Shown here: piece by piece, positions 6,077 through 22,738 of the stretch
How positions within the stretch are numbered: the first letter of the stretch is position 1
Layout: each line of letters begins with the position of its first letter
IMG/VR virus record: IMGVR_UViG_3300033806_000109
Coordinates: 1-23,121 of that record
DNA from: a virus
Reading direction: 5' to 3' (one strand)
Length of the DNA stretch: 23,121 nucleotides
The notes under the pieces: model-generated
What the model saw: only the letters and a program-made list of their open reading frames with translations
Database searches by the model: none
What the model was told of the DNA's origin: nothing
Translations under genes and position numbers: made by a program

Positions 6077-6249
6077 TGCTCCAGGCGCTCTCGCCAGAGG
6101 ACGGTGCACAGAAAGCCGTGGAGCACTTCTGCGGCCCGCCGGGCCACAAGGAGCGGATCCGCGTGCTCCTCGCGCCGTCCTGGGCCTATGACTGGTGTTC
6201 GTCCTGCGGGCAGGCCTGGGCGGCTCGCACGGCCGCGGGGGAGTCCTGA
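6076..6249 (+). CDS. Short Cys-rich protein
   Basis: 57 aa from ATG 6076, overlapping the previous stop by one base and giving its own last base to the portal start. C19, H24 and C41-x2-C44 (WCSSCGQAW) look like a small zinc ribbon. No family recognised. The TGATG junctions on both sides are good evidence that it is translated. Confidence 0.55.
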   Translation: MLQALSPEDGAQKAVEHFCGPPGHKERIRVLLAPSWAYDWCSSCGQAWAARTAAGES

Positions 6250-8087
6250 TGGGCCTCGATCTGAGCAAGTGTCCCCCCGCGAAGGGCAGCGAGAAGACCC
6301 TGCTGACCTTCTTAGACCGCCTGGACGAAGAATCGCGCGCCGCCAAGGACGCCGCCGGCGCCGATCGCTGGGAGGACTGGATCGACCTCTTCCGCGGGCA
6401 GTGGAAGATGCCGGAGATGGAGGGCAATCCCCTCTTCGAGGCCAACGTGATCGGGGCCACGATCGACCGCAAGACCGCCCTGCTCACGGAGCAGAAGCCG
6501 ACCGTCTTCATCGGGCCGCGCAAGGGGGGCCTGAAGGCCACGGCCGACGTCCTGAAAAACGCCTTCGACGCCGCCTGGGATGAGTATTCGATGGAGCTGG
6601 TCCTGGAACGCCTCGCCTACTTCGTCGGCATCCCCGGCGCGGGCTTCGTGAAGCTCCCCTGGGACCGGGAGGCCGACTTCGGGCGCGGCGACGTCGTCCC
6701 GACCGTCCTGGATCCGCGCACCGTCCGGATGGATCCCTCGGTGGTCAGCAGCTATGACCTGGACAAGGCCCAATATGTCTGTGTCGAGACGGCCGAGTGC
6801 CTGTGGGACGTGTGGAACCGCTTTCCCGGCCCGGGGATGATGGTCAAGCCGGACGCGCGCATCACCGATACGGCGAAGAAGCCCTCGGAGCAGCGTCCCG
6901 GGTTCATGCGGCGGCTCACCGGCATGTGGCGGAGCAAGGTCAACCGGGCCGCCCTCGAGCCCGGGGCGATCCCGCGGACCCGCCTGATGGAGTATCAGTT
7001 CCAGGATCCGGCCCTCAACGACGACGGCACGCGCGTCTATCCCCAGGGCCGGCACATCATCCGCGGGGGCTGCGGGGACGGCGACGACGTGATCTTGCTC
7101 GACGAAGCCAATCCCTACTGGGACGGCCAGTGGGATCTCGAAATGCTCGACGGCCGTCCCGACCTCGAACACCCCTGGGGCCGCTCGGAAGTCGCGGCGT
7201 TGCGGCGCGTGCAGGAGAGCCTGAACCGGATCGGGCAGCTCTATCTCGAAAACCGCATCCGGCTGGGCTACGGCTGGATCGTCTACGACGAACAGGCCCT
7301 CACGCCCAAAGATGTCGAGATCCTGCGCAAGTCCGGGGCGATCTGCGTGGCGCGCCGCCGCGGCTTCAGCGTGGAGCGCCAGGCGCCCCTGGCCATGCCG
7401 GCGGACTTTCTGGAGTTCGCCAAGTTCCTCGTCCAGACGGTGGACTACCTTTCGGGCCTGGCCGACGTGAACCTCCAGGGGCGCGGGCGCCTCGAAGTCC
7501 GTTCGGGGGCGCAGCTCGAAGGCCTCCAGCAGGCCGGGCAGACGCTCGTGCGATTTCACGCGCGCCGCCTGGAGGGCTTCTTGCAACGCCTCGGGCAAAA
7601 ATGGATTTCCCGCATCTTTCAGTTCTGGACGGGCGACCGGATCCTGACCTTCCTGGGGCCGGGCGAGCAGTTCCAGCAGTTCACCTTCGAGCGCCAGAAG
7701 CTCATCAGCGAGCTGGTGGGCCTGGCGCAGAAAGACATCCAGGAGAAACTCGCCAAGCAGAACGGCGACGGGAAGGGCCTCGGCGTGGACGAGCTCGCCG
7801 ACGCGATCAAGGACCGCGTGAAGGTCGCGTGGCGCGACTTCACCTTCCGGATCACGCCGGGCTCGAGCCTGGCCGTGACGAAAGTCCAGCGCGCCCTCTT
7901 GTTCAAAGAGCTCTGGCAGGCCGGCCTCGGGCCCGGCAGCGACGTCCTGCGCGCGCTCGGCGAGGCCGACCCCCACGGGAAGATGACGCAGGCGAAAGAA
8001 GAGGCGGCCCAATTCGGCCCGCCGCCGCAGCCGGCGAAGGGCCAGGGCGGCAAGAAGCAGGCCGGACAGCCTGCAGGAGTTGCGTAA
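6249..8087 (+). CDS. Portal protein
   Basis: 612 aa from ATG 6249; the longer frame from 6195 is rejected because ATG 6249 sits on the preceding stop. Portal proteins form the dodecameric ring at the head vertex through which DNA enters and leaves. The N-terminal third (RWEDWIDLFRGQWKMP, then ANVIGATIDRKTALLTEQKP) is typical of P22/podovirus-style portals, followed by a beta-rich wing and 'RRVQESLNRIGQLYLENRI', which fits the stem/clip region. The C-terminus is low-complexity (Gln/Pro/Gly/Lys). Size and place directly after the terminase module fit. The exact portal subfamily is uncertain. Confidence 0.85.
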   Translation: MGLDLSKCPPAKGSEKTLLTFLDRLDEESRAAKDAAGADRWEDWIDLFRGQWKMPEMEGNPLFEANVIGATIDRKTALLTEQKPTVFIGPRKGGLKATADVLKNAFDAAWDEYSMELVLERLAYFVGIPGAGFVKLPWDREADFGRGDVVPTVLDPRTVRMDPSVVSSYDLDKAQYVCVETAECLWDVWNRFPGPGMMVKPDARITDTAKKPSEQRPGFMRRLTGMWRSKVNRAALEPGAIPRTRLMEYQFQDPALNDDGTRVYPQGRHIIRGGCGDGDDVILLDEANPYWDGQWDLEMLDGRPDLEHPWGRSEVAALRRVQESLNRIGQLYLENRIRLGYGWIVYDEQALTPKDVEILRKSGAICVARRRGFSVERQAPLAMPADFLEFAKFLVQTVDYLSGLADVNLQGRGRLEVRSGAQLEGLQQAGQTLVRFHARRLEGFLQRLGQKWISRIFQFWTGDRILTFLGPGEQFQQFTFERQKLISELVGLAQKDIQEKLAKQNGDGKGLGVDELADAIKDRVKVAWRDFTFRITPGSSLAVTKVQRALLFKELWQAGLGPGSDVLRALGEADPHGKMTQAKEEAAQFGPPPQPAKGQGGKKQAGQPAGVA

Positions 8088-8446: not shown

Positions 8447-8622
8447 GGAGCAGTGACCGCACGGAGCAGGTCAAGCGCGAGCGGCACACGGGACGGTTTG
8501 CCGCGCCCCGCAGCATAGTGTGCGCCCATTGCCACCGGTTGGGAGGCACGATGGTCAAGGCGGCGGGGTGGTACTTTCATCGGGAATGCCCGAAGGTGAT
8601 GGTGCCCCTACCGGGGAAGTGA
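8443..8622 (+). CDS. Small zinc-finger-like protein
   Basis: 59 aa with a GTG start at 8443 overlapping the previous stop. C27-x2-C30-x15-H46-x2-C49 is a clear zinc-binding pattern (VCAHCHRLGG, WYFHRECP) after a basic N-terminus. The same pattern with wider spacing occurs in the leftward gene at 1-326. Its stop overlaps the GTG of the homing endonuclease. Probably a nucleic-acid-binding accessory; no named family. Confidence 0.6.
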   Translation: MRSSDRTEQVKRERHTGRFAAPRSIVCAHCHRLGGTMVKAAGWYFHRECPKVMVPLPGK

Positions 8623-9128
8623 CCGTGGCGCACATTCTTCACGTTCTCGGCGATCCCTCTTTGAGCGAACCGTTGTCGATGACGGAATTCGAACGGGGGA
8701 TGCTGGCGGGACTGGTCATCGGCGAAGGGACGATAACCCTCTCCTCCATGGGGAAGAAGGGATTTCGGCCCGAAGTGAAACTCAGCAACACCGACCCCCG
8801 TATCATCCAGTGGATCGATGAGCTGCTCACGCGATGCGGGATCAAGCACTTCTGTTCGGTGATGAAGACCCGGCGCCTCCAGAAGCCGACCCACCGCCTT
8901 CAGTATATGATCTCCATCTGGGGCCTTGCGGCTACCCATCGCCTGCTGAAAGACTTACGGCCAGCACTCTTCGTCAAGGGCGAGCAGGCCGACCTTGTCT
9001 TGGGATTCATCGCCCTTCGCCTTTCAGCCTTGAAAACGCATGGGCGCTTCGGGAATCCGCCCCGGCAAGGGGAAGCTGAGGATGCCATCGTTGGAAAGAT
9101 TCGGTTCCTCAACAAGCGAGGCGCATGA
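8619..9128 (+). CDS. LAGLIDADG homing endonuclease, freestanding
   Basis: 169 aa from GTG 8619; GTG 8625 is possible. One LAGLIDADG motif, LAGLVIGEGTI (residues 29-39), in which E36 takes the place of the catalytic Asp as in many family members. It is followed by EVKLSNTDPRIIQWIDELL and further alpha/beta segments of the fold. A single motif implies a homodimer. Such enzymes cut a specific DNA site and spread by repair. Codon use is visibly less GC-biased than in the neighbours, consistent with insertion. It overlaps both neighbours, so it is integrated without breaking the translation chain. No intron or intein boundary is seen. Confidence 0.85.
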   Translation: MTVAHILHVLGDPSLSEPLSMTEFERGMLAGLVIGEGTITLSSMGKKGFRPEVKLSNTDPRIIQWIDELLTRCGIKHFCSVMKTRRLQKPTHRLQYMISIWGLAATHRLLKDLRPALFVKGEQADLVLGFIALRLSALKTHGRFGNPPRQGEAEDAIVGKIRFLNKRGA

Positions 9129-9310
9129 TGGCTGCTCGAGCCACCACAATTAAAACACAGGAGATGGTCCGCGAAGGATACGATCCGAAGGTCGCCGCCG
9201 CCGCCGCGCACTCGATGAAGCGCCGCGGGACGCTGAGCCGCACGGGCAAGTATCGGCGGGTCCACAAGAAGAAGCGGGGCCCGCGAGGACGCCAGCGCGC
9301 GATGAAATGA
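9125..9310 (+). CDS. Small basic protein
   Basis: 61 aa starting Met-Met at 9125, overlapping the endonuclease stop. The N-terminal half is Ala-rich and helical (YDPKVAAAAAHSMKRRG); the C-terminal half is strongly basic (KYRRVHKKKRGPRGRQR). Probably binds nucleic acid or an acidic partner. Last gene before the terminator at 9365-9412. No family recognised. Confidence 0.6.
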   Translation: MMAARATTIKTQEMVREGYDPKVAAAAAHSMKRRGTLSRTGKYRRVHKKKRGPRGRQRAMK

Positions 9311-9328
9311 CGTAGCACAGCACGCCCA

Positions 9329-9351
9329 CGCCCCGTCTTGCTAACGGGGCG
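9329..9351 (+). repeat. Hairpin before the terminator
   Basis: Perfect 8-bp stem CGCCCCGT/ACGGGGCG (9329-9336 and 9344-9351) with a 7-base loop, 14 bases before the main terminator stem. It may slow polymerase or protect the 3' end of the upstream transcript. Confidence 0.5.
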
Positions 9352-9364
9352 GGCGCAGGCCGGG

Positions 9365-9412
9365 AGAGAACGCCTCCATCCCACGTGGGGGGGGTGGAGG
9401 CGTTCTCTTTTT
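9365..9412 (+). terminator. Strong intrinsic terminator
   Basis: Perfect 14-bp stem AGAGAACGCCTCCA (9365-9378) with its complement (9395-9408), extendable inward by CCC/GGG pairs, followed by a TTTTT run (9408-9412). This is a textbook rho-independent terminator. It ends the portal-side operon and implies a new promoter, or antitermination, for the capsid genes downstream. Confidence 0.9.
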
Positions 9413-9527
9413 GGGCTCCCGGAGCACGGACTGCCAAGGGGCCGCCCCGGCTCAGTTCCGTCCGGCCCGTCTGCGATCCTTCGCCGGCACGCAGCGGGGA
9501 GCGGGTGAGCTGAGGACAGCCCGCAGG

Positions 9528-9538
9528 AAGGAGGTGAT
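9528..9538 (+). promoter_or_regulatory. Complete Shine-Dalgarno sequence
   Basis: AAGGAGGTGAT is complementary to the last 11 bases of typical bacterial 16S rRNA. GGAGG lies eight bases before ATG 9543. It decides the start of the 22-residue peptide and predicts very strong initiation. Confidence 0.85.
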
Positions 9539-9542
9539 TCGT

Positions 9543-9611
9543 ATGGCTCGCCACACCAAGAAGATGAAGAAGGTCCGGCGGCGCCGGGGCGTCAAGCACC
9601 GGAAGGTGTAG
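9543..9611 (+). CDS. 22-residue Arg/Lys-rich peptide
   Basis: A 23-codon frame: 12 of 22 residues are Arg or Lys and two are His; the core is KKMKKVRRRRGVKHRK. It starts at ATG 9543 behind the longest ribosome site in the window, so translation is likely despite its size. A protamine-like or RNA-binding role, or a leader peptide controlling downstream genes, are the main options. It lies between a terminator and a perfect hairpin. Confidence 0.65.
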   Translation: MARHTKKMKKVRRRRGVKHRKV

Positions 9612-9636
9612 CGCCCCAGGGAACGCATCGGAGGGA

Positions 9637-9664
9637 GCCCGGAGGGGCACGCGCCCCTCCGGGC
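9637..9664 (+). repeat. Perfect 12-bp hairpin with ACGC tetraloop
   Basis: GCCCGGAGGGGC (9637-9648) pairs fully with 9653-9664. No T tract follows, so it is not a standard intrinsic terminator. It could be an RNA-processing or stability element between the peptide gene and the next small gene. Confidence 0.6.
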
Positions 9665-9707
9665 ACTTCCACGCACGGAGCATCTCCCACACAGGAAAGG
9701 AGCAGTC

Positions 9708-9845
9708 ATGGCGCGGAAGGGTGGAAAAGGCACCCACATCATCAGCCCGGTGGACCCGCGGGGCAAGGCGGCCCCGACCTTCGAGGGGCGCCGGGCGGGT
9801 GGGGGCAGGCGCGGGCGCGTTCGACGCGCGTCCCGGAGGCAGTAG
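9708..9845 (+). CDS. Small basic protein
   Basis: 45 aa from ATG 9708, with AAAGGAG about seven bases upstream. N-terminal MARKGGKGTHIISPVDPRGK, then a Gly/Arg-rich tail (RRAGGGRRGRVRRASRRQ). Probably nucleic-acid-binding. It is the third small basic gene in 720 bases. No family recognised. Confidence 0.6.
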   Translation: MARKGGKGTHIISPVDPRGKAAPTFEGRRAGGGRRGRVRRASRRQ

Positions 9846-10139: not shown

Positions 10140-10170
10140 CGGTCAGGACGATCCTCGAACGGAGGACACC

Positions 10171-10491
10171 ATGCGACAGCACCTCCTGGAAAAGCACGAG
10201 AGCGATGAACACGGGCATCCCGCCGGGGGCGCGACCACGGGCGTCGGCCTGGCCATCCAGTGGCAAGACGGGCCGCTGGGCCGAGGGCCGGAGCGGCGGG
10301 AGCCCAACGGGGCCTTCGTGGAGGGCGTGATCCAGGCCGCCATCGGGCGGCTGCAATTCTATCAGGGCAGCAAGTTCCGCTGCCGGGAGAACGCCCTGGC
10401 CCTGACCAAGCTCGAGGAAGCCCTCCACTGGCTGGACCACCGCACGCGCGACCGCGAGACGCGGGAGGTGGAGGGGACGCACGTCCTATAG
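10171..10491 (+). CDS. Acb2/Tad1-like cyclic-nucleotide sponge candidate
   Basis: 106 aa from ATG 10171, with GGAGG before it. Residues 47-66 (GAFVEGVIQAAIGRLQFYQG) and 73-105 (ENALALTKLEEALHWLDHRT, then RETREVEGTH) match the helical-hairpin signature I know from Acb2/Tad1-domain phage proteins, in particular 'ALTKLEEA' and the C-terminal 'VEGTH'. Known members form oligomers that sequester the cyclic nucleotide or cyclic ADP-ribose signals made by CBASS and Thoeris defence systems. The N-terminal 45 residues (His/Gly-rich) are less conserved-looking. The late-operon site is compatible with known family members. The family call is from memory of the motif; ligand specificity is unknown. Confidence 0.7.
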   Translation: MRQHLLEKHESDEHGHPAGGATTGVGLAIQWQDGPLGRGPERREPNGAFVEGVIQAAIGRLQFYQGSKFRCRENALALTKLEEALHWLDHRTRDRETREVEGTHVL

Positions 10492-11583: not shown

Positions 11584-12543
11584 ATGGCGCTTCCGGTGAC
11601 CAACGACCAGCTCAACAACGTCGTGACCTCGACGTATGAGGTCAAGCGGAAGCGGGTGGTCTACGATGCCTTCTTCGTGGACAACCCGCTGTTCGTCCGC
11701 CTGAACACCAAGGAAAAGGTCAAGACGATGGGCGGCAGCCCCATCACCTTCCCCTTCATTTACGACAAGCTGCCGGGCGGGTCCTACGGCAAGGGCGACA
11801 AGTTCGGCACGGCCTTCAAGGAATTCATGACGGAGGGCCGGCTGAATTGGAAGCGCTACCGCGCGGAGATGGCGGCCGATGGGCTGGACATCGCCGTGAA
11901 CCGGGGCGAGCTCGCCGTCATCGACTGGATGGAGACCCAGATGCAGGTCGCCGAGCGGACGCTGGCCGAGGATATCGGTCTCGACCTCTATGGCGACGGG
12001 ACGGGCAACAACTCCAAGGCCCTCGACGGCCTGCGGGTGGCCATCGACGACACCCTGAGTTACGGCGGGATCACCCGCGACACCAGCAAGCAGGGCACGG
12101 CCATCAAGGCCTCCGTGAACACCACAGGGGGCGCCTTCTCCTTCGCCATGATCAACACCCAGATGGGGAAGGTGACGTTCGGGAAGCGCAAGCCCGACCT
12201 CCTGCTCATGTCCCAGCGCCTCTGGAACAAGGGCTGGGAGCGGTCGCAGCCCTCCGAGCGGAACGTCGCCGAGGACCTGCGCAAGGTCGGGTTCAACTCC
12301 TGGCAGATCAATGGGGCGGACGCCGTGGTGGACCCGCACGTCACGGACGACGGGACGAACGGGACCATCTACGGCGTGAACACCGACTTCCTCGAGTTCT
12401 GGGTGCTGGAGGGCAACGACTTCCGGCTCCGCGGGATGTTCGAGGTGCACGACGAAGACACCCAGGTCGGGCAGATCATCAACTACTGCAACGTCGTCGT
12501 GCCGGCGCCCCGGTACAACTTCCGGATCGACAACGTGCAGTAA
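11584..12543 (+). CDS. Major capsid protein
   Basis: 319 aa from ATG 11584, behind GGAGCAC. Features fitting an HK97-fold capsid subunit: N-terminal helix (TNDQLNNVVTSTYEVKRKRV), a stretch rich in Gly and aromatic residues (GGSPITFPFIYDKLPGGSYG) like the E-loop region, the long spine helix (QMQVAERTLAEDIGLDLYGD), then a beta-rich P/A domain (LLLMSQRLWN, NSWQINGADAVVDPH) and a C-terminal beta strand region (YNFRIDNVQ). Length, order after a scaffold-like gene, and the structured leader fit. No delta-domain protease signal is visible. The family subtype cannot be named with confidence. Confidence 0.85.
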   Translation: MALPVTNDQLNNVVTSTYEVKRKRVVYDAFFVDNPLFVRLNTKEKVKTMGGSPITFPFIYDKLPGGSYGKGDKFGTAFKEFMTEGRLNWKRYRAEMAADGLDIAVNRGELAVIDWMETQMQVAERTLAEDIGLDLYGDGTGNNSKALDGLRVAIDDTLSYGGITRDTSKQGTAIKASVNTTGGAFSFAMINTQMGKVTFGKRKPDLLLMSQRLWNKGWERSQPSERNVAEDLRKVGFNSWQINGADAVVDPHVTDDGTNGTIYGVNTDFLEFWVLEGNDFRLRGMFEVHDEDTQVGQIINYCNVVVPAPRYNFRIDNVQ

Positions 12544-13635: not shown

Positions 13636-14823
13636 ATGCTCGGCGGCCTGCTCGCAGCCGCCGTCGCGCTGGTCCTGCTCAATCTAGGCCCCTTCGGGCC
13701 CACGGAGCGGGATAAGCGCCACCACTATCTCTGGGTGGGCGCCGGGCTCTTGGTAGCCGGCGCCTGCCCGGAGCGGTGGGTCGGTCTGTCTTTGGCGGTG
13801 ATTGTTCTTTCGGCCCTCCTGAAGCCTCCCATCGCGCACTCGACCCTTTCGCTGCCGCCCATCGTGGCCTGGGGGGGTGTCTACGACCTGTTATCCGTAG
13901 CCCTCCCCAGGCCAGGATGGCACCTGGCCATGGCCGCCGCAGTGGCAGTCTGCTGTCTGGGGATCGTGCTGTCTACGACGCTCCGCGTTATGATTATCAC
14001 CCGGGGGATCGACCCGTTCAATGTGGAGGTCCCCTTGAAAATCCCCTTCACGAGGCTGGCCTACGTCTACCATACGCAATCGCCCAATCTCTGCGCGCCG
14101 CTCGATAACCCCTTCTTCGCCGGACCAGCCTTCGCCTGGCTGCTGCCGTGGGTGGCCGGGATGACATTGCATGCCCAGGGATACCATGTCATCCCCTGGG
14201 CGTTCTTGGGCCTGATCCTCCTCTGGGGCATGTGGCTGACGGGCTCCCGGGGCGCCTGGGTGGCCGCCCTCGTCTCCGCGGGGGTGTACGTGGCCGTCCT
14301 CATGGCCCCGGCCGCTCCTGGCGTCCTAGTGGCAGCCCTGGGGGGTGCTGGCGCGGTGGCCGTGGTTGCCTGGATGGGGCCGACGGGACGGCAGCGGGAC
14401 GCCTGCCTGCGCCAGAGCTTCCTCCGGTGGCAGAAGTTCCCCTGGATCGTCCGCTGGACCGGGACCGGGCCCTGGGGGTGGTGGTTCTGGATGGCCGACG
14501 GGAGACCCCAGCAAGGCCTCGTGCCCACGGAGGAGGCCATACGACTTCGGGAGTACGCCACCCCCGGCCAAACGATCCGGCACCTGCACAACGATTGGGC
14601 ACAGGCGGTCTTCGAGCACGGGCCTTTGATCCTCGTCCCGACCCTGGGCTACCTGGCCACCACGCTGTGGCGCCTGGGCCATTCTCCGGACCCGTGGGCG
14701 CCCGCCATGGCCGCCGGCGTGGCCGGGATCGCCGTCACGTGCCTGTGGGCGCATCCCTTCAGAATGGCCGACACGAGCCTGCTGATTCTCTTATGGCTCG
14801 TCGGGGCCGGACAGGTTCGATGA
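13636..14823 (+). CDS. O-antigen ligase/polymerase-like (Wzy_C) membrane protein
   Basis: 395 aa from ATG 13636. About ten hydrophobic segments are visible. 'WLTGSRGAWVAALVSAG' (200-216) matches the S-R-G motif at the start of the Wzy_C domain; 'WIVRWTGTGPWGWW' (270-283) matches the Gly-rich part; and 'RHLHNDWAQAVFEHGPL' (315-331) matches the HND..Q...E.G motif of the large periplasmic loop in WaaL/Wzy proteins. These enzymes join or polymerise undecaprenyl-linked glycans at the outer face of the inner membrane. Ligase, polymerase and protein O-oligosaccharyltransferase share this domain and cannot be separated here. It is linked to the preceding small structural gene by a one-base gap. A phage-borne copy among head genes is unusual. 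Confidence 0.8.
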   Translation: MLGGLLAAAVALVLLNLGPFGPTERDKRHHYLWVGAGLLVAGACPERWVGLSLAVIVLSALLKPPIAHSTLSLPPIVAWGGVYDLLSVALPRPGWHLAMAAAVAVCCLGIVLSTTLRVMIITRGIDPFNVEVPLKIPFTRLAYVYHTQSPNLCAPLDNPFFAGPAFAWLLPWVAGMTLHAQGYHVIPWAFLGLILLWGMWLTGSRGAWVAALVSAGVYVAVLMAPAAPGVLVAALGGAGAVAVVAWMGPTGRQRDACLRQSFLRWQKFPWIVRWTGTGPWGWWFWMADGRPQQGLVPTEEAIRLREYATPGQTIRHLHNDWAQAVFEHGPLILVPTLGYLATTLWRLGHSPDPWAPAMAAGVAGIAVTCLWAHPFRMADTSLLILLWLVGAGQVR

Positions 14824-15728: not shown

Positions 15729-16766
15729 GTGCGCATCGCCATCACGCTCTATTCCCTCGACGGCGGGGGCGCCGAATTCCAGATGGCGCTCCTGGCCGGC
15801 GGACTGCACAAGCGGGGCCACGAGGTCGAATTCTGGCTCATGGCGTCGAGCGAGAACGAGCGATGGGCGTCCCGCTGGTGCCGTCCGTTGATTCGGCGCG
15901 CGCGCCTCCTGCCCGGGCGCCTGGCCTACGCCGGCATCTTGGGAAGCTGGCGGCGGGCACTCAAGCGCTTCCGGCCCCATGCGGTCATTGGGGGCCTCCC
16001 CCTGCCGCATACGCTGGTCTCGCTGGCGGCCACGGGGCTCGACATCCCCGTCATCGGCCGGCGCTGCGCCTCCTGGGGGGACCTGACGGTGTTCCCCCAG
16101 CACGCGCGGATGCCCCGGAAGCTCCGGGCGATGCGCCGGCTGGCCGCGCGGGGGACGGCCGCCATGGTCTGCAACGCCCAGCACGTCCTGGCCAGCGCGC
16201 GGGACCTCGAGGGCTGGCCGAGGGAGAAGCTGCGGCTGATCCGGAACGGCTGGCCCGAGTCGCCCGCCATCGACCACGAGAATCGCCTCGTGGCCACGGC
16301 CGGCCGGGGGCGGATCGAGAAAGACCACGAAGCCCATCGGCGGATCATGTCCGGCTTGCCCCGGCTCGACGGCCAGCCCGGGACGCGGCAGGAGCACGTC
16401 TTTCATTACGAGGCCGATGTCCCGTGGCACAACATGGGGATTTACGCCCACGTCTCCCGGAGCGAGGGGTGCTCCAACGCCATCGGCATGGCCATGGCCC
16501 ACGGGATCCCCGTGGTCGCCTACGGGACGCTCGGAAATCTCGAGCTCCTGCGGGACCTGCCGACCGTGTGGCCCTACGAAGAAAGCCTCTTTCGGGACCG
16601 GATTCACGTCCTGCAGTCGAGCCGGGAATTGCGGGAGATCCTGGGGGTACGTGGCCAGGAGCTCGTGCGGAAACGCTTCGGCCTTGACCGGATGGTGGAG
16701 GAATGGGAGAGCCTGATCGACGAGACAGCGACTCCGCGGTGCCCGACCTGCGGCCAGCGACCGTAG
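15729..16766 (+). CDS. GT4-like glycosyltransferase
   Basis: 345 aa with a GTG start at 15729, two bases after the previous stop. The N-terminal Rossmann half starts with ITLYSLDGGGAEFQMALLAG (4-23), the Gly-rich acceptor-domain loop of GT-B enzymes. The C-terminal half shows 'HVSRSEGCSNAIGMAMAHGI' (241-260), the nucleotide-sugar site of GT4 families. In the usual E-x7-E pair E246 is present, but the second position is M254, and the linker between the halves (185-225) is short. It may act with reduced or changed donor use, or be degenerate. It presumably adds a sugar to a lipid-linked or protein-linked glycan. The C-terminus carries CPTCG (338-342), possibly an artefact of overlap with the next gene. 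Confidence 0.8.
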   Translation: MRIAITLYSLDGGGAEFQMALLAGGLHKRGHEVEFWLMASSENERWASRWCRPLIRRARLLPGRLAYAGILGSWRRALKRFRPHAVIGGLPLPHTLVSLAATGLDIPVIGRRCASWGDLTVFPQHARMPRKLRAMRRLAARGTAAMVCNAQHVLASARDLEGWPREKLRLIRNGWPESPAIDHENRLVATAGRGRIEKDHEAHRRIMSGLPRLDGQPGTRQEHVFHYEADVPWHNMGIYAHVSRSEGCSNAIGMAMAHGIPVVAYGTLGNLELLRDLPTVWPYEESLFRDRIHVLQSSRELREILGVRGQELVRKRFGLDRMVEEWESLIDETATPRCPTCGQRP

Positions 16767-17368
16767 AGCGGCCGTCCTGGGTGCCCTGGTTCCGGCGCGC
16801 CCTCGCGCGCTACCAGAACCCGTGGGCCTATTTTCTCGATTCCGTGAAATACATGGAACCCGTGTTCGGGCGGATCCGAACGCTCGCGCCCCCGCCGTGC
16901 CGTCTGATCGAGCTGGGCTGCGGGATCGGCATGGCAGCCGCCATCCTCAGCGGCTATGGCTACGATGTCGTGGGTGTGGACGATGACCAGTCCGTCCTGT
17001 GGCTGGCCGCGTCGATGCCCTGGCAGCGGTGCAGCCTCCGGTCGCTCTTGCACCACGGCGACGTCCGCCAGGGCTTCGGTGGCTGGAACGTGGCCACGAG
17101 CCTCGGCGTCATCGAGCATGAAGACCACGCGATGCGCCGGGTCATGCTGGAGCGCCTCCGGGAGGCCGGCAGGGTGCACGTCGTCTGCTGGCCCAGCCCG
17201 TTCGGCCTGGCGCACGACGAGCCCACGATGGGCGAGCGGACACTCTATCTCCAGGAAGTGAGGGACGAGTGCCAGAGCGTGGGGTGGACGGTCATTGAAG
17301 CGTTCGGCTTCGGGGGACCGCTTCCCTCCTCGGCGCCCTGGAGCCATTGCATCATTGGTGGCCGATGA
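16703..17368 (+). CDS. SAM-dependent methyltransferase 1
   Basis: 221 aa from ATG 16703, with GGTGGAGGA immediately upstream, overlapping the glycosyltransferase by 64 bases; GTG 16739 is an alternative start. Class I fold: motif I IELGCGIGMAAA (69-80), acidic strand-2 end VVGVDDDQ (89-96), 'NVATSLGVIEHED' as motif IV and then 'GRVHVVCWPSPFG'. Target unknown; position between a glycosyltransferase and another methyltransferase suggests a sugar. No targeting signal is seen, so it is cytoplasmic. Confidence 0.8.
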   Translation: MGEPDRRDSDSAVPDLRPATVERPSWVPWFRRALARYQNPWAYFLDSVKYMEPVFGRIRTLAPPPCRLIELGCGIGMAAAILSGYGYDVVGVDDDQSVLWLAASMPWQRCSLRSLLHHGDVRQGFGGWNVATSLGVIEHEDHAMRRVMLERLREAGRVHVVCWPSPFGLAHDEPTMGERTLYLQEVRDECQSVGWTVIEAFGFGGPLPSSAPWSHCIIGGR

Positions 17369-18081
17369 AGGAATACGTGTCGTCCTTCGGCTACGAATGG
17401 TCCCGGCACTCCCGGACCCAGTTCGGGGACGAGAGCGACGAGACGTTCCACGTGAAAACCGGCTGGACCCCGGCCGATATTCAGGGGCGGCGCGTCCTGG
17501 ACGCCGGGTGCGGCAGCGGGCGCTTCGCCGATGTGGTCCGGCGGTGGGGGGGCAACGTGACGGCCTTCGACCTGAGCGGCGCGGTGCAGACCGCCGCCCC
17601 GGCCGGTCGCGTGGCGAAGGCCGATCTCTTCGCCCCGCCCTTCCCGCCGCGGACCTTCGACAAGGTCTACTGCCTCGGAGTCCTCCATCATACGCCCTGG
17701 CCGGGCCTCGGCGTGTACGAGCTGTCCCGCCTGGTGAAGCCCGGCGGGGAGCTGGCGATCTGGGTGTACGGCGAGATGGGATCGTGGGCCCGGCGGGCCG
17801 ACCGGCTGCGGCGCTGGACGCCGAAGCTGCCGCATCGGCTCCTGTACGCCCTCTGCCACGCGGCCGTGCTCACCCGGGGGTTCGGGGGGCTGATGCCGGT
17901 CAGCACCCACCCCCGGTGGCGGTGGAGGGTGCTCGACACGTTCGATTGGTACGCGCCGCCCATTCAGAGCCGGCACGACCTGCAGGAGGTCTCCCGGTGG
18001 TTGTGGGCGGCGGACCTGCGCGACCTCGTGCCGGGGGACTTTCCCGTCTCCATGCGCGGCCGGCGGCCGCTGAGAGGGTGA
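17365..18081 (+). CDS. SAM-dependent methyltransferase 2
   Basis: 238 aa from ATG 17365, overlapping the previous stop (ATGA). The N-terminus 'SSFGYEWSRHSRTQF' followed by 'TGWTPADIQGRRVLDAGCGS' is typical of methyltransferases in surface-polysaccharide gene clusters. Motif I is VLDAGCGSG (44-52), the acidic residue is D69, and 'FDKVYCLGVLHHTPWPGLG' (98-116) and 'LVKPGGELAIWVYG' (123-136) complete the Methyltransf_11-type core. The remaining 100 residues are basic and Trp-rich, perhaps a glycan- or membrane-contact region. Probable O-methylation of a sugar; substrate not provable. Confidence 0.85.
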   Translation: MKEYVSSFGYEWSRHSRTQFGDESDETFHVKTGWTPADIQGRRVLDAGCGSGRFADVVRRWGGNVTAFDLSGAVQTAAPAGRVAKADLFAPPFPPRTFDKVYCLGVLHHTPWPGLGVYELSRLVKPGGELAIWVYGEMGSWARRADRLRRWTPKLPHRLLYALCHAAVLTRGFGGLMPVSTHPRWRWRVLDTFDWYAPPIQSRHDLQEVSRWLWAADLRDLVPGDFPVSMRGRRPLRG

Positions 18082-22165: not shown

Positions 22166-22210
22166 ATGATTTTCTTCCTACACACGATGAATCTATGATA
22201 CGTTGTGAGC

Positions 22211-22738
22211 ATGGATACCGCAGCGGAACACAAACGGCGCCGCGACCTTGCTTGGAAGAAACGCAACCGCGCCAAGTGCAATCGGTGGCTTCGTCGGTGG
22301 AGGCGAAAGAACCTCAAGCACTCATTGGCGTGGCACCGTCGCTGGCGGCAGGAGAACGCGGAGCGATGCGCGGAGTATCACCGACGCGACTACACAAAAC
22401 ACAAGGCGAAGCGGCGGAAGACGAACAATCGCTGGCGAGCCGTGCATCCAAAGGAGACCAATGCGGCGAATCGACAGGGCTACCGACGGCTTCGCCAGCA
22501 GGTTCTGGACCATTACGGCGGAAAGTGCCGATGCTGCGGAGAGAAACGGCTGGAGTTCCTCGCCCTTCACCACCTAAATGGAGGTGGCAGGCAGCACCGA
22601 AAATCTCTCGGCCTCTTTTCTTTGACCCCTTCCTGGTACAGGGTGCGCGGGTTCCCCAAGGGATTCGGAGTGCTTTGTCATAATTGTAACTTTGCGCTGG
22701 GACGGTACGGGTACTGTCCGCACAAGAACAAGCCATGA
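22211..22738 (+). CDS. HNH homing-endonuclease-like protein
   Basis: 175 aa from ATG 22211; GTG 22205 would add two residues. The N-terminal 100 residues are Arg/Lys-rich helices (WKKRNRAKCNRWLRRWRRKN), probably for DNA contact. The nuclease core has C106-x2-C109 (KCRCCGEK), 'FLALHHLNGGGRQHR' (116-130, with H120/H121 and N123 as the HNH residues) and 'LCHNCN' (C156-x2-C159) completing a zinc-stabilised beta-beta-alpha-metal fold. It is preceded by 45 AT-rich bases, uses less GC-biased codons than its neighbours, and ends on ATGA with the next gene. Likely a freestanding mobile endonuclease. Confidence 0.85.
   Translation: MDTAAEHKRRRDLAWKKRNRAKCNRWLRRWRRKNLKHSLAWHRRWRQENAERCAEYHRRDYTKHKAKRRKTNNRWRAVHPKETNAANRQGYRRLRQQVLDHYGGKCRCCGEKRLEFLALHHLNGGGRQHRKSLGLFSLTPSWYRVRGFPKGFGVLCHNCNFALGRYGYCPHKNKP

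Follow-up and report, generated by a model that had tools for sequence, protein, structure and literature searches.

The open reading frame at positions 10171-10491 raises the question of whether this virus produces a protein that sequesters the nucleotide signals of Thoeris or CBASS defense, and to which side of the Acb2/Tad1 family such a protein would belong. The window (the whole stretch of DNA analyzed, 23,121 bases) corresponds to the full length of one virus record. On the plus strand, the reading frame starts with ATG, ends with TAG and encodes 106 amino acids, and a strong Shine-Dalgarno-like GGAGG lies immediately 5' of the start codon (CGGAGGACACCATG). The GC content at its three codon positions (0.77/0.45/0.90) resembles that of the portal, scaffold-position and capsid genes. 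When compared with close homologs, the gene differs mainly at third codon positions (e.g. 23/17/53 at first, second and third positions for the copy L010). Given the Shine-Dalgarno sequence, the neighbor-like codon composition and conservation of the protein in unrelated phages, the reading frame is a genuine gene, referred to here as tad1-like. An antisense or out-of-frame origin was rejected from the codon statistics and the homologs, the antisense frame scoring -0.8 against known Tad1 proteins. Chance similarity to Tad1 was also rejected, given that the real protein scored 74 bits in this comparison and the best of 200 shuffled sequences reached 6.3 bits. The features of the locus are collected in the table below.

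Features of the tad1-like locus, in window coordinates
Feature	Position	Strand	Basis
tad1-like gene, 106-aa sponge protein (predicted)	10171..10491	+	phmmer 8kbb/7uav, phrog_2428, tblastn SBSphiJ7, AlphaFold2, Foldseek
Ribosome-binding site GGAGG, 5' of ATG	10160..10170	+	sequence
N-terminal beta-sheet domain, residues 1-46, loops GNPAGG and WQ(N/D)GPLGRG..R.EPNG	10171..10308	+	AlphaFold2 strands; conservation, 65 relatives
Hairpin helix 1, residues 51-65, ends Y64-Q65	10321..10365	+	AlphaFold2; alignment
Hairpin helix 2, residues 72-97, with N74, R91, R95	10384..10461	+	AlphaFold2; alignment
C-terminal tail, residues 98-106, with V-E-G-T-H	10462..10488	+	conservation, 65 relatives
Inverted repeat, perfect, overlaps tad1-like stop codon	10483..10506	+	without T run, absent from relatives

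Searches of the PDB with phmmer recovered every Tad1 chain and nothing else credible, with E-values of 3e-14 for CmTad1 (8kbb) and 2e-9 for CbTad1 (7uav, 7uaw and 8smd) over residues 32-104. With a profile built from 65 sequences, the Tad1 match improved to 1.6e-17 over residues 29-104. No Acb2 chain in the PDB was matched up to E=10 by either phmmer or the profile. By tblastn, the protein was 51% (50.6%) identical to Tad1 of Bacillus phage SBSphiJ7 over residues about 28-104, which form the hairpin half; the SBSphiJ7 homolog (UPI13470.1) carries the annotation Tad1. Homologs were present in 38 annotated phage records, including SBSphiJ7, Vibrio Ackermannviridae (47%) and other Herelleviridae, and PHROG 2428 (phrog_2428) was matched at E=1e-22. 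The Pfam Acb2/Tad1 hairpin family PF24729 was matched over residues 68-88 with 24 bits (E=4e-5), which is 3 bits short of the curated gathering score of 27 bits and was counted against a Tad1 assignment. The lack of any family hit, which an earlier, sequence-only reading of this DNA had named as refuting, was not observed, although the Pfam hairpin model itself fell just below its cut-off.

An AlphaFold2 model built with 65 homologs (pLDDT 84, pTM 0.74) consists of an antiparallel N-terminal beta sheet (strands at residues 5-11, 17-24 and 27-31) followed by two long helices (residues 51-65 and 72-97), which is the Tad1 layout. Tad1 proteins combine an N-terminal beta sheet with helices, and Acb2 has a short helix where the sheet stands (PMC12043709). 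In a Foldseek search of the PDB, all 20 matches with E≤0.001 were Tad1 chains. Alignment of the model to gcADPR-bound CbTad1 (8smd) by VIA-align gave a Z score of 8.2 and an rmsd of 2.8 for 91 residues spanning model positions 1-104; unrelated structures in this comparison were generic helical hairpins with Z scores of at most 6.5, mostly covering the hairpin only. A Z score of 8 is modest taken alone and was weighed as such. The best matches in BFVD were phage proteins named 'Acb2/Tad1 hairpin domain-containing'. Given the Tad1 layout of the model and the restriction of the Foldseek PDB matches to Tad1, the protein is Tad1-like rather than Acb2-like. By sequence and fold, the product of this gene is a homolog of the experimentally solved Tad1 (Thoeris anti-defense 1) proteins. 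The sequence-only reading had named an Acb2/Tad1-type sponge, for which family homology and a predicted helical hairpin would be needed; both were found, and it is the Tad1 part of the proposal that holds, by phmmer, profile and fold, and the Acb2 part that falls away. The same reading described a His-rich N-terminal extension as a difference from characterized members. This segment is instead the conserved Tad1 beta-sheet domain, in a form shorter than that of tested members, and its histidines are variable: H9 is found in 29 of 65 relatives, and H4, H14 and H16 are largely confined to the window copy.

Alignment to CbTad1 (chain numbering minus one) placed Y64 at the position of F82 and N74 at that of N92, two residues that we take to be essential for gcADPR binding. 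The F82 position is Tyr or Phe in all 65 relatives and the N92 position is Asn in 64 of 65. The Tyr of the window protein is a conservative change and was counted against the Tad1 assignment. R60, R91, T92, R95, E101 and G102 are invariant among the 65 relatives. The ENALALTKLEEALHWLDHRT segment and the VEGTH motif singled out in the sequence-only reading are both present in the translation, and the VEGTH tail is nearly invariant, with V100, T103 and H104 each retained in at least 90% of the 65 relatives in addition to the invariant E101 and G102. In Tad1, this tail forms part of the wall of the ligand pocket (PMC12043709).

Comparison with individual Tad1 proteins defines the extent of this likeness. 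CbTad1 (PDB 7uav, 7uaw, 8smd and 8kbf) is 31-32% identical and shares the full-length fold, and its residues N92, R109, R113, G120 and T121 are conserved in the window protein, F82 being replaced by Tyr. With SBSphiJ7 Tad1 and CmTad1 (PDB 8kbb-8kbd), the protein shares homology over residues ∼28-104, the fold and the tail WLxxRTxxRExxxVEGTH, but its N-terminal domain is shorter and Tyr again stands for Phe82. The window protein also has a longer loop from the last strand to helix 1 (GPLGRGPERREPNGAFVE), whereas SBSphiJ7 Tad1 and CmTad1 have GP(V/I)xExGxNGVxNE. The short N-terminal domain was also held against the Tad1 assignment, the protein having 106 amino acids, whereas the annotated genes of Bacillus and Lactococcus encode 117-142.

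Taken with what is established for tested family members, these data make a Tad1-type sponge the very likely product of this gene; the present analysis provides the gene, its homology to Tad1, a predicted protomer fold and the conservation of pocket positions, and the hexamer, ligands and anti-defense effect would follow by analogy with the tested proteins. Tad1 is an oligomeric sponge in which pockets between protomers take up gcADPR or cyclic dinucleotides and separate sites take up cyclic trinucleotides (PMC12043709). By this analogy, six copies of the window protein would assemble as three dimers. To each inter-protomer pocket, one chain would contribute its C-terminal tail and the loops of its beta sheet, and the partner chain its helices. 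Six such pockets would hold gcADPR or cyclic dinucleotides, and two further sites, located at the trimer interfaces, would accept cyclic trinucleotides. The bound signal would be sequestered stoichiometrically rather than cleaved, such that Thoeris and CBASS effectors would stay inactive and the infected cell would not kill itself. The target could be either Thoeris or CBASS. As the sequence-only reading implied, the host lineage may carry such defenses.

The distribution of relatives was assessed in IMG/VR, where 143 stretches fitted the search patterns, 127 encoded relatives and 80 were retained, the last being 52-71% identical to the window protein. Few other reading frames of the window matched the relatives' loci, each in one or two loci, and a conserved operon partner was therefore rejected. 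An IMG/VR search for relatives of the window's capsid protein found none, and the best annotated phages encode capsid proteins 23-28% identical to it. The sponge is thus far better conserved than its carrier, which fits an accessory, horizontally moving counter-defense gene. The relatives are flanked by a varied set of genes that includes terminase, portal, HNH endonuclease and recombination genes. Where a terminase was detectable (16 relative records), the gene lay within 5 kb on the same strand in 7; in the remainder it was separated from the terminase by 3.5 to 97 kb or lay on the opposite strand. In SBSphiJ7 and other Bacillus phages, tad1 adjoins a RecA-like gene. A phylogenetic tree placed the tested Tad1 proteins in one clade with support of 99/100 and the window gene outside it with environmental copies, the order within this environmental group being unresolved; that all tested members lie outside the window's own branch was counted against the Tad1 assignment. 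A few copies come from contigs assigned by binning to Planctomycetes, Phycisphaerales, Lentisphaerae, Omnitrophota, Amesbacteria and Actinomycetes, and the eight such metagenome-assembled contigs, from very different phyla, are probably phage contigs. TIR_2 domains above the cut-off were observed in 3 of 7 of the metagenome-assembled genomes with copies and in 4 of 14 control genomes; given that the controls carry TIR_2 too, these counts are uninformative on host defense.

The head-morphogenesis cluster in which the gene resides, with portal (6249-8087) on one side and capsid (11584-12543) on the other, raises the alternative of a Tad1-fold virion or head-assembly protein in which the hairpin would serve assembly and signal binding would be lost or secondary. 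The 65-relative profile also picked up gp184 (PDB 8y6v, chain I) at E=2e-7, the C terminus of which forms the same hairpin. We take this chain to be gp184 of phiKZ, an inner-body interactor and virion protein that is injected into the cell; it differs from the window protein in its length of 230 amino acids and its long N-terminal region. Some relatives are annotated 'structural protein', namely Lactococcus phage 1706 orf71, Bacillus phage P59 and a Klebsiella Eowyn protein. Because the gene sits in the head cluster and the same hairpin occurs in gp184, which is injected from the phiKZ virion, a small probability was kept for a virion role. It is opposed by the occurrence of relatives in unrelated phages, by their dispersed positions relative to terminase and the RecA-like neighbor in Bacillus phages, and by conservation of the pocket positions beyond the needs of a mere helix hairpin. 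A combination of both functions, in which proteins of this branch would be made late from the head cluster, packaged with the capsid and delivered into the cell together with the DNA, appears very unlikely; if true, the alarm signal would be soaked up ahead of any phage gene expression. The structural annotations of the Tad1 homologs of Lactococcus phage 1706 (orf71, L004:2896-3249) and Bacillus phage P59 (L095:1363-1725) raise, together with gp184, the question of whether some sponges ride in virions; a search of the accessible literature found no evidence of 1706 orf71 in virions.

Two further alternatives concern the ligand. Separation of the branch from the tested Tad1 proteins (99/100), the change of F82 to Tyr and the branch's own conserved loop WQ(N/D)GPLGRG..R.EPNGAF would be compatible with a Tad1-fold sponge that mainly binds a nucleotide signal other than those of tested members. 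The two groups nevertheless have the pocket Asn, the Arg residues and the C-terminal tail in common, and the tested homologs are reported to be alike in conserving gcADPR and cyclic trinucleotide binding (PMC12043709), leaving only a slim chance for a different main ligand. An Acb2-type sponge, restricted to cGAMP and cA3, would share the C-terminal helical hairpin (family PF24729) that is common to Acb2 (T4 Vs.4, PDB 7uq2; PaMx33 Acb2) and Tad1, and T4 Vs.4 does fit the hairpin of the model with a Z score of 6.2 over residues 37-100. By contrast, the sequence searches that found all Tad1 chains returned no Acb2 match, and the predicted N terminus is a beta sheet in place of the short helix that accompanies the two antiparallel helices of Acb2, which makes this assignment extremely improbable.

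The predicted Tad1-type sponge is a clear new member of an already known family. From one query, the 127 relatives add to the Tad1 family a large environmental branch from uncultured phages in which no member has been tested. If these proteins are active, this would suggest that the pressure of nucleotide-signaling defenses on phages extends far outside the Bacillus, Vibrio and Pseudomonas models. The branch also supplies compact candidate sponge proteins for comparison of ligand range.

The surroundings of the gene contain further features. The inverted repeat at the tad1-like stop codon is probably not part of the sponge system, given that it lacks a T run and is not common to the relatives. 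It is one of three strong inverted repeats within 1.2 kb near small genes, the others lying at 9365-9408 and 9637-9664, none of them with a T run. Perfect inverted-repeat arms of at least 10 numbered 2 in the window versus 0 to 2 in simulations, and an Rfam search of the window gave no match. Between the portal gene and tad1 lie a LAGLIDADG_3 homing endonuclease-like gene (8550-9128) and, beyond it, tiny, very basic reading frames with good ribosome-binding sites (9125-9845). The latter encode 61 amino acids (9125-9310), 22 amino acids (MARHTKKMKKVRRRRGVKHRKV, inside 9411-9611) and 45 amino acids (9708-9845), and are possibly protamine-like or head-related.

A 177-amino acid basic protein (22205-22738) with CRCCGE and CHNCNF motifs that appear by eye typical of HNH endonucleases had no Pfam match at 0.01. 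In the structural region, 13636-14823 encodes a 395-amino acid polytopic membrane protein that by eye resembles an O-antigen ligase or polymerase, also with no Pfam match. A glycosyltransferase (GT4-like) gene and two SAM methyltransferase genes (15729-18081) lie within the late gene region and are possibly morons for surface or tail modification.
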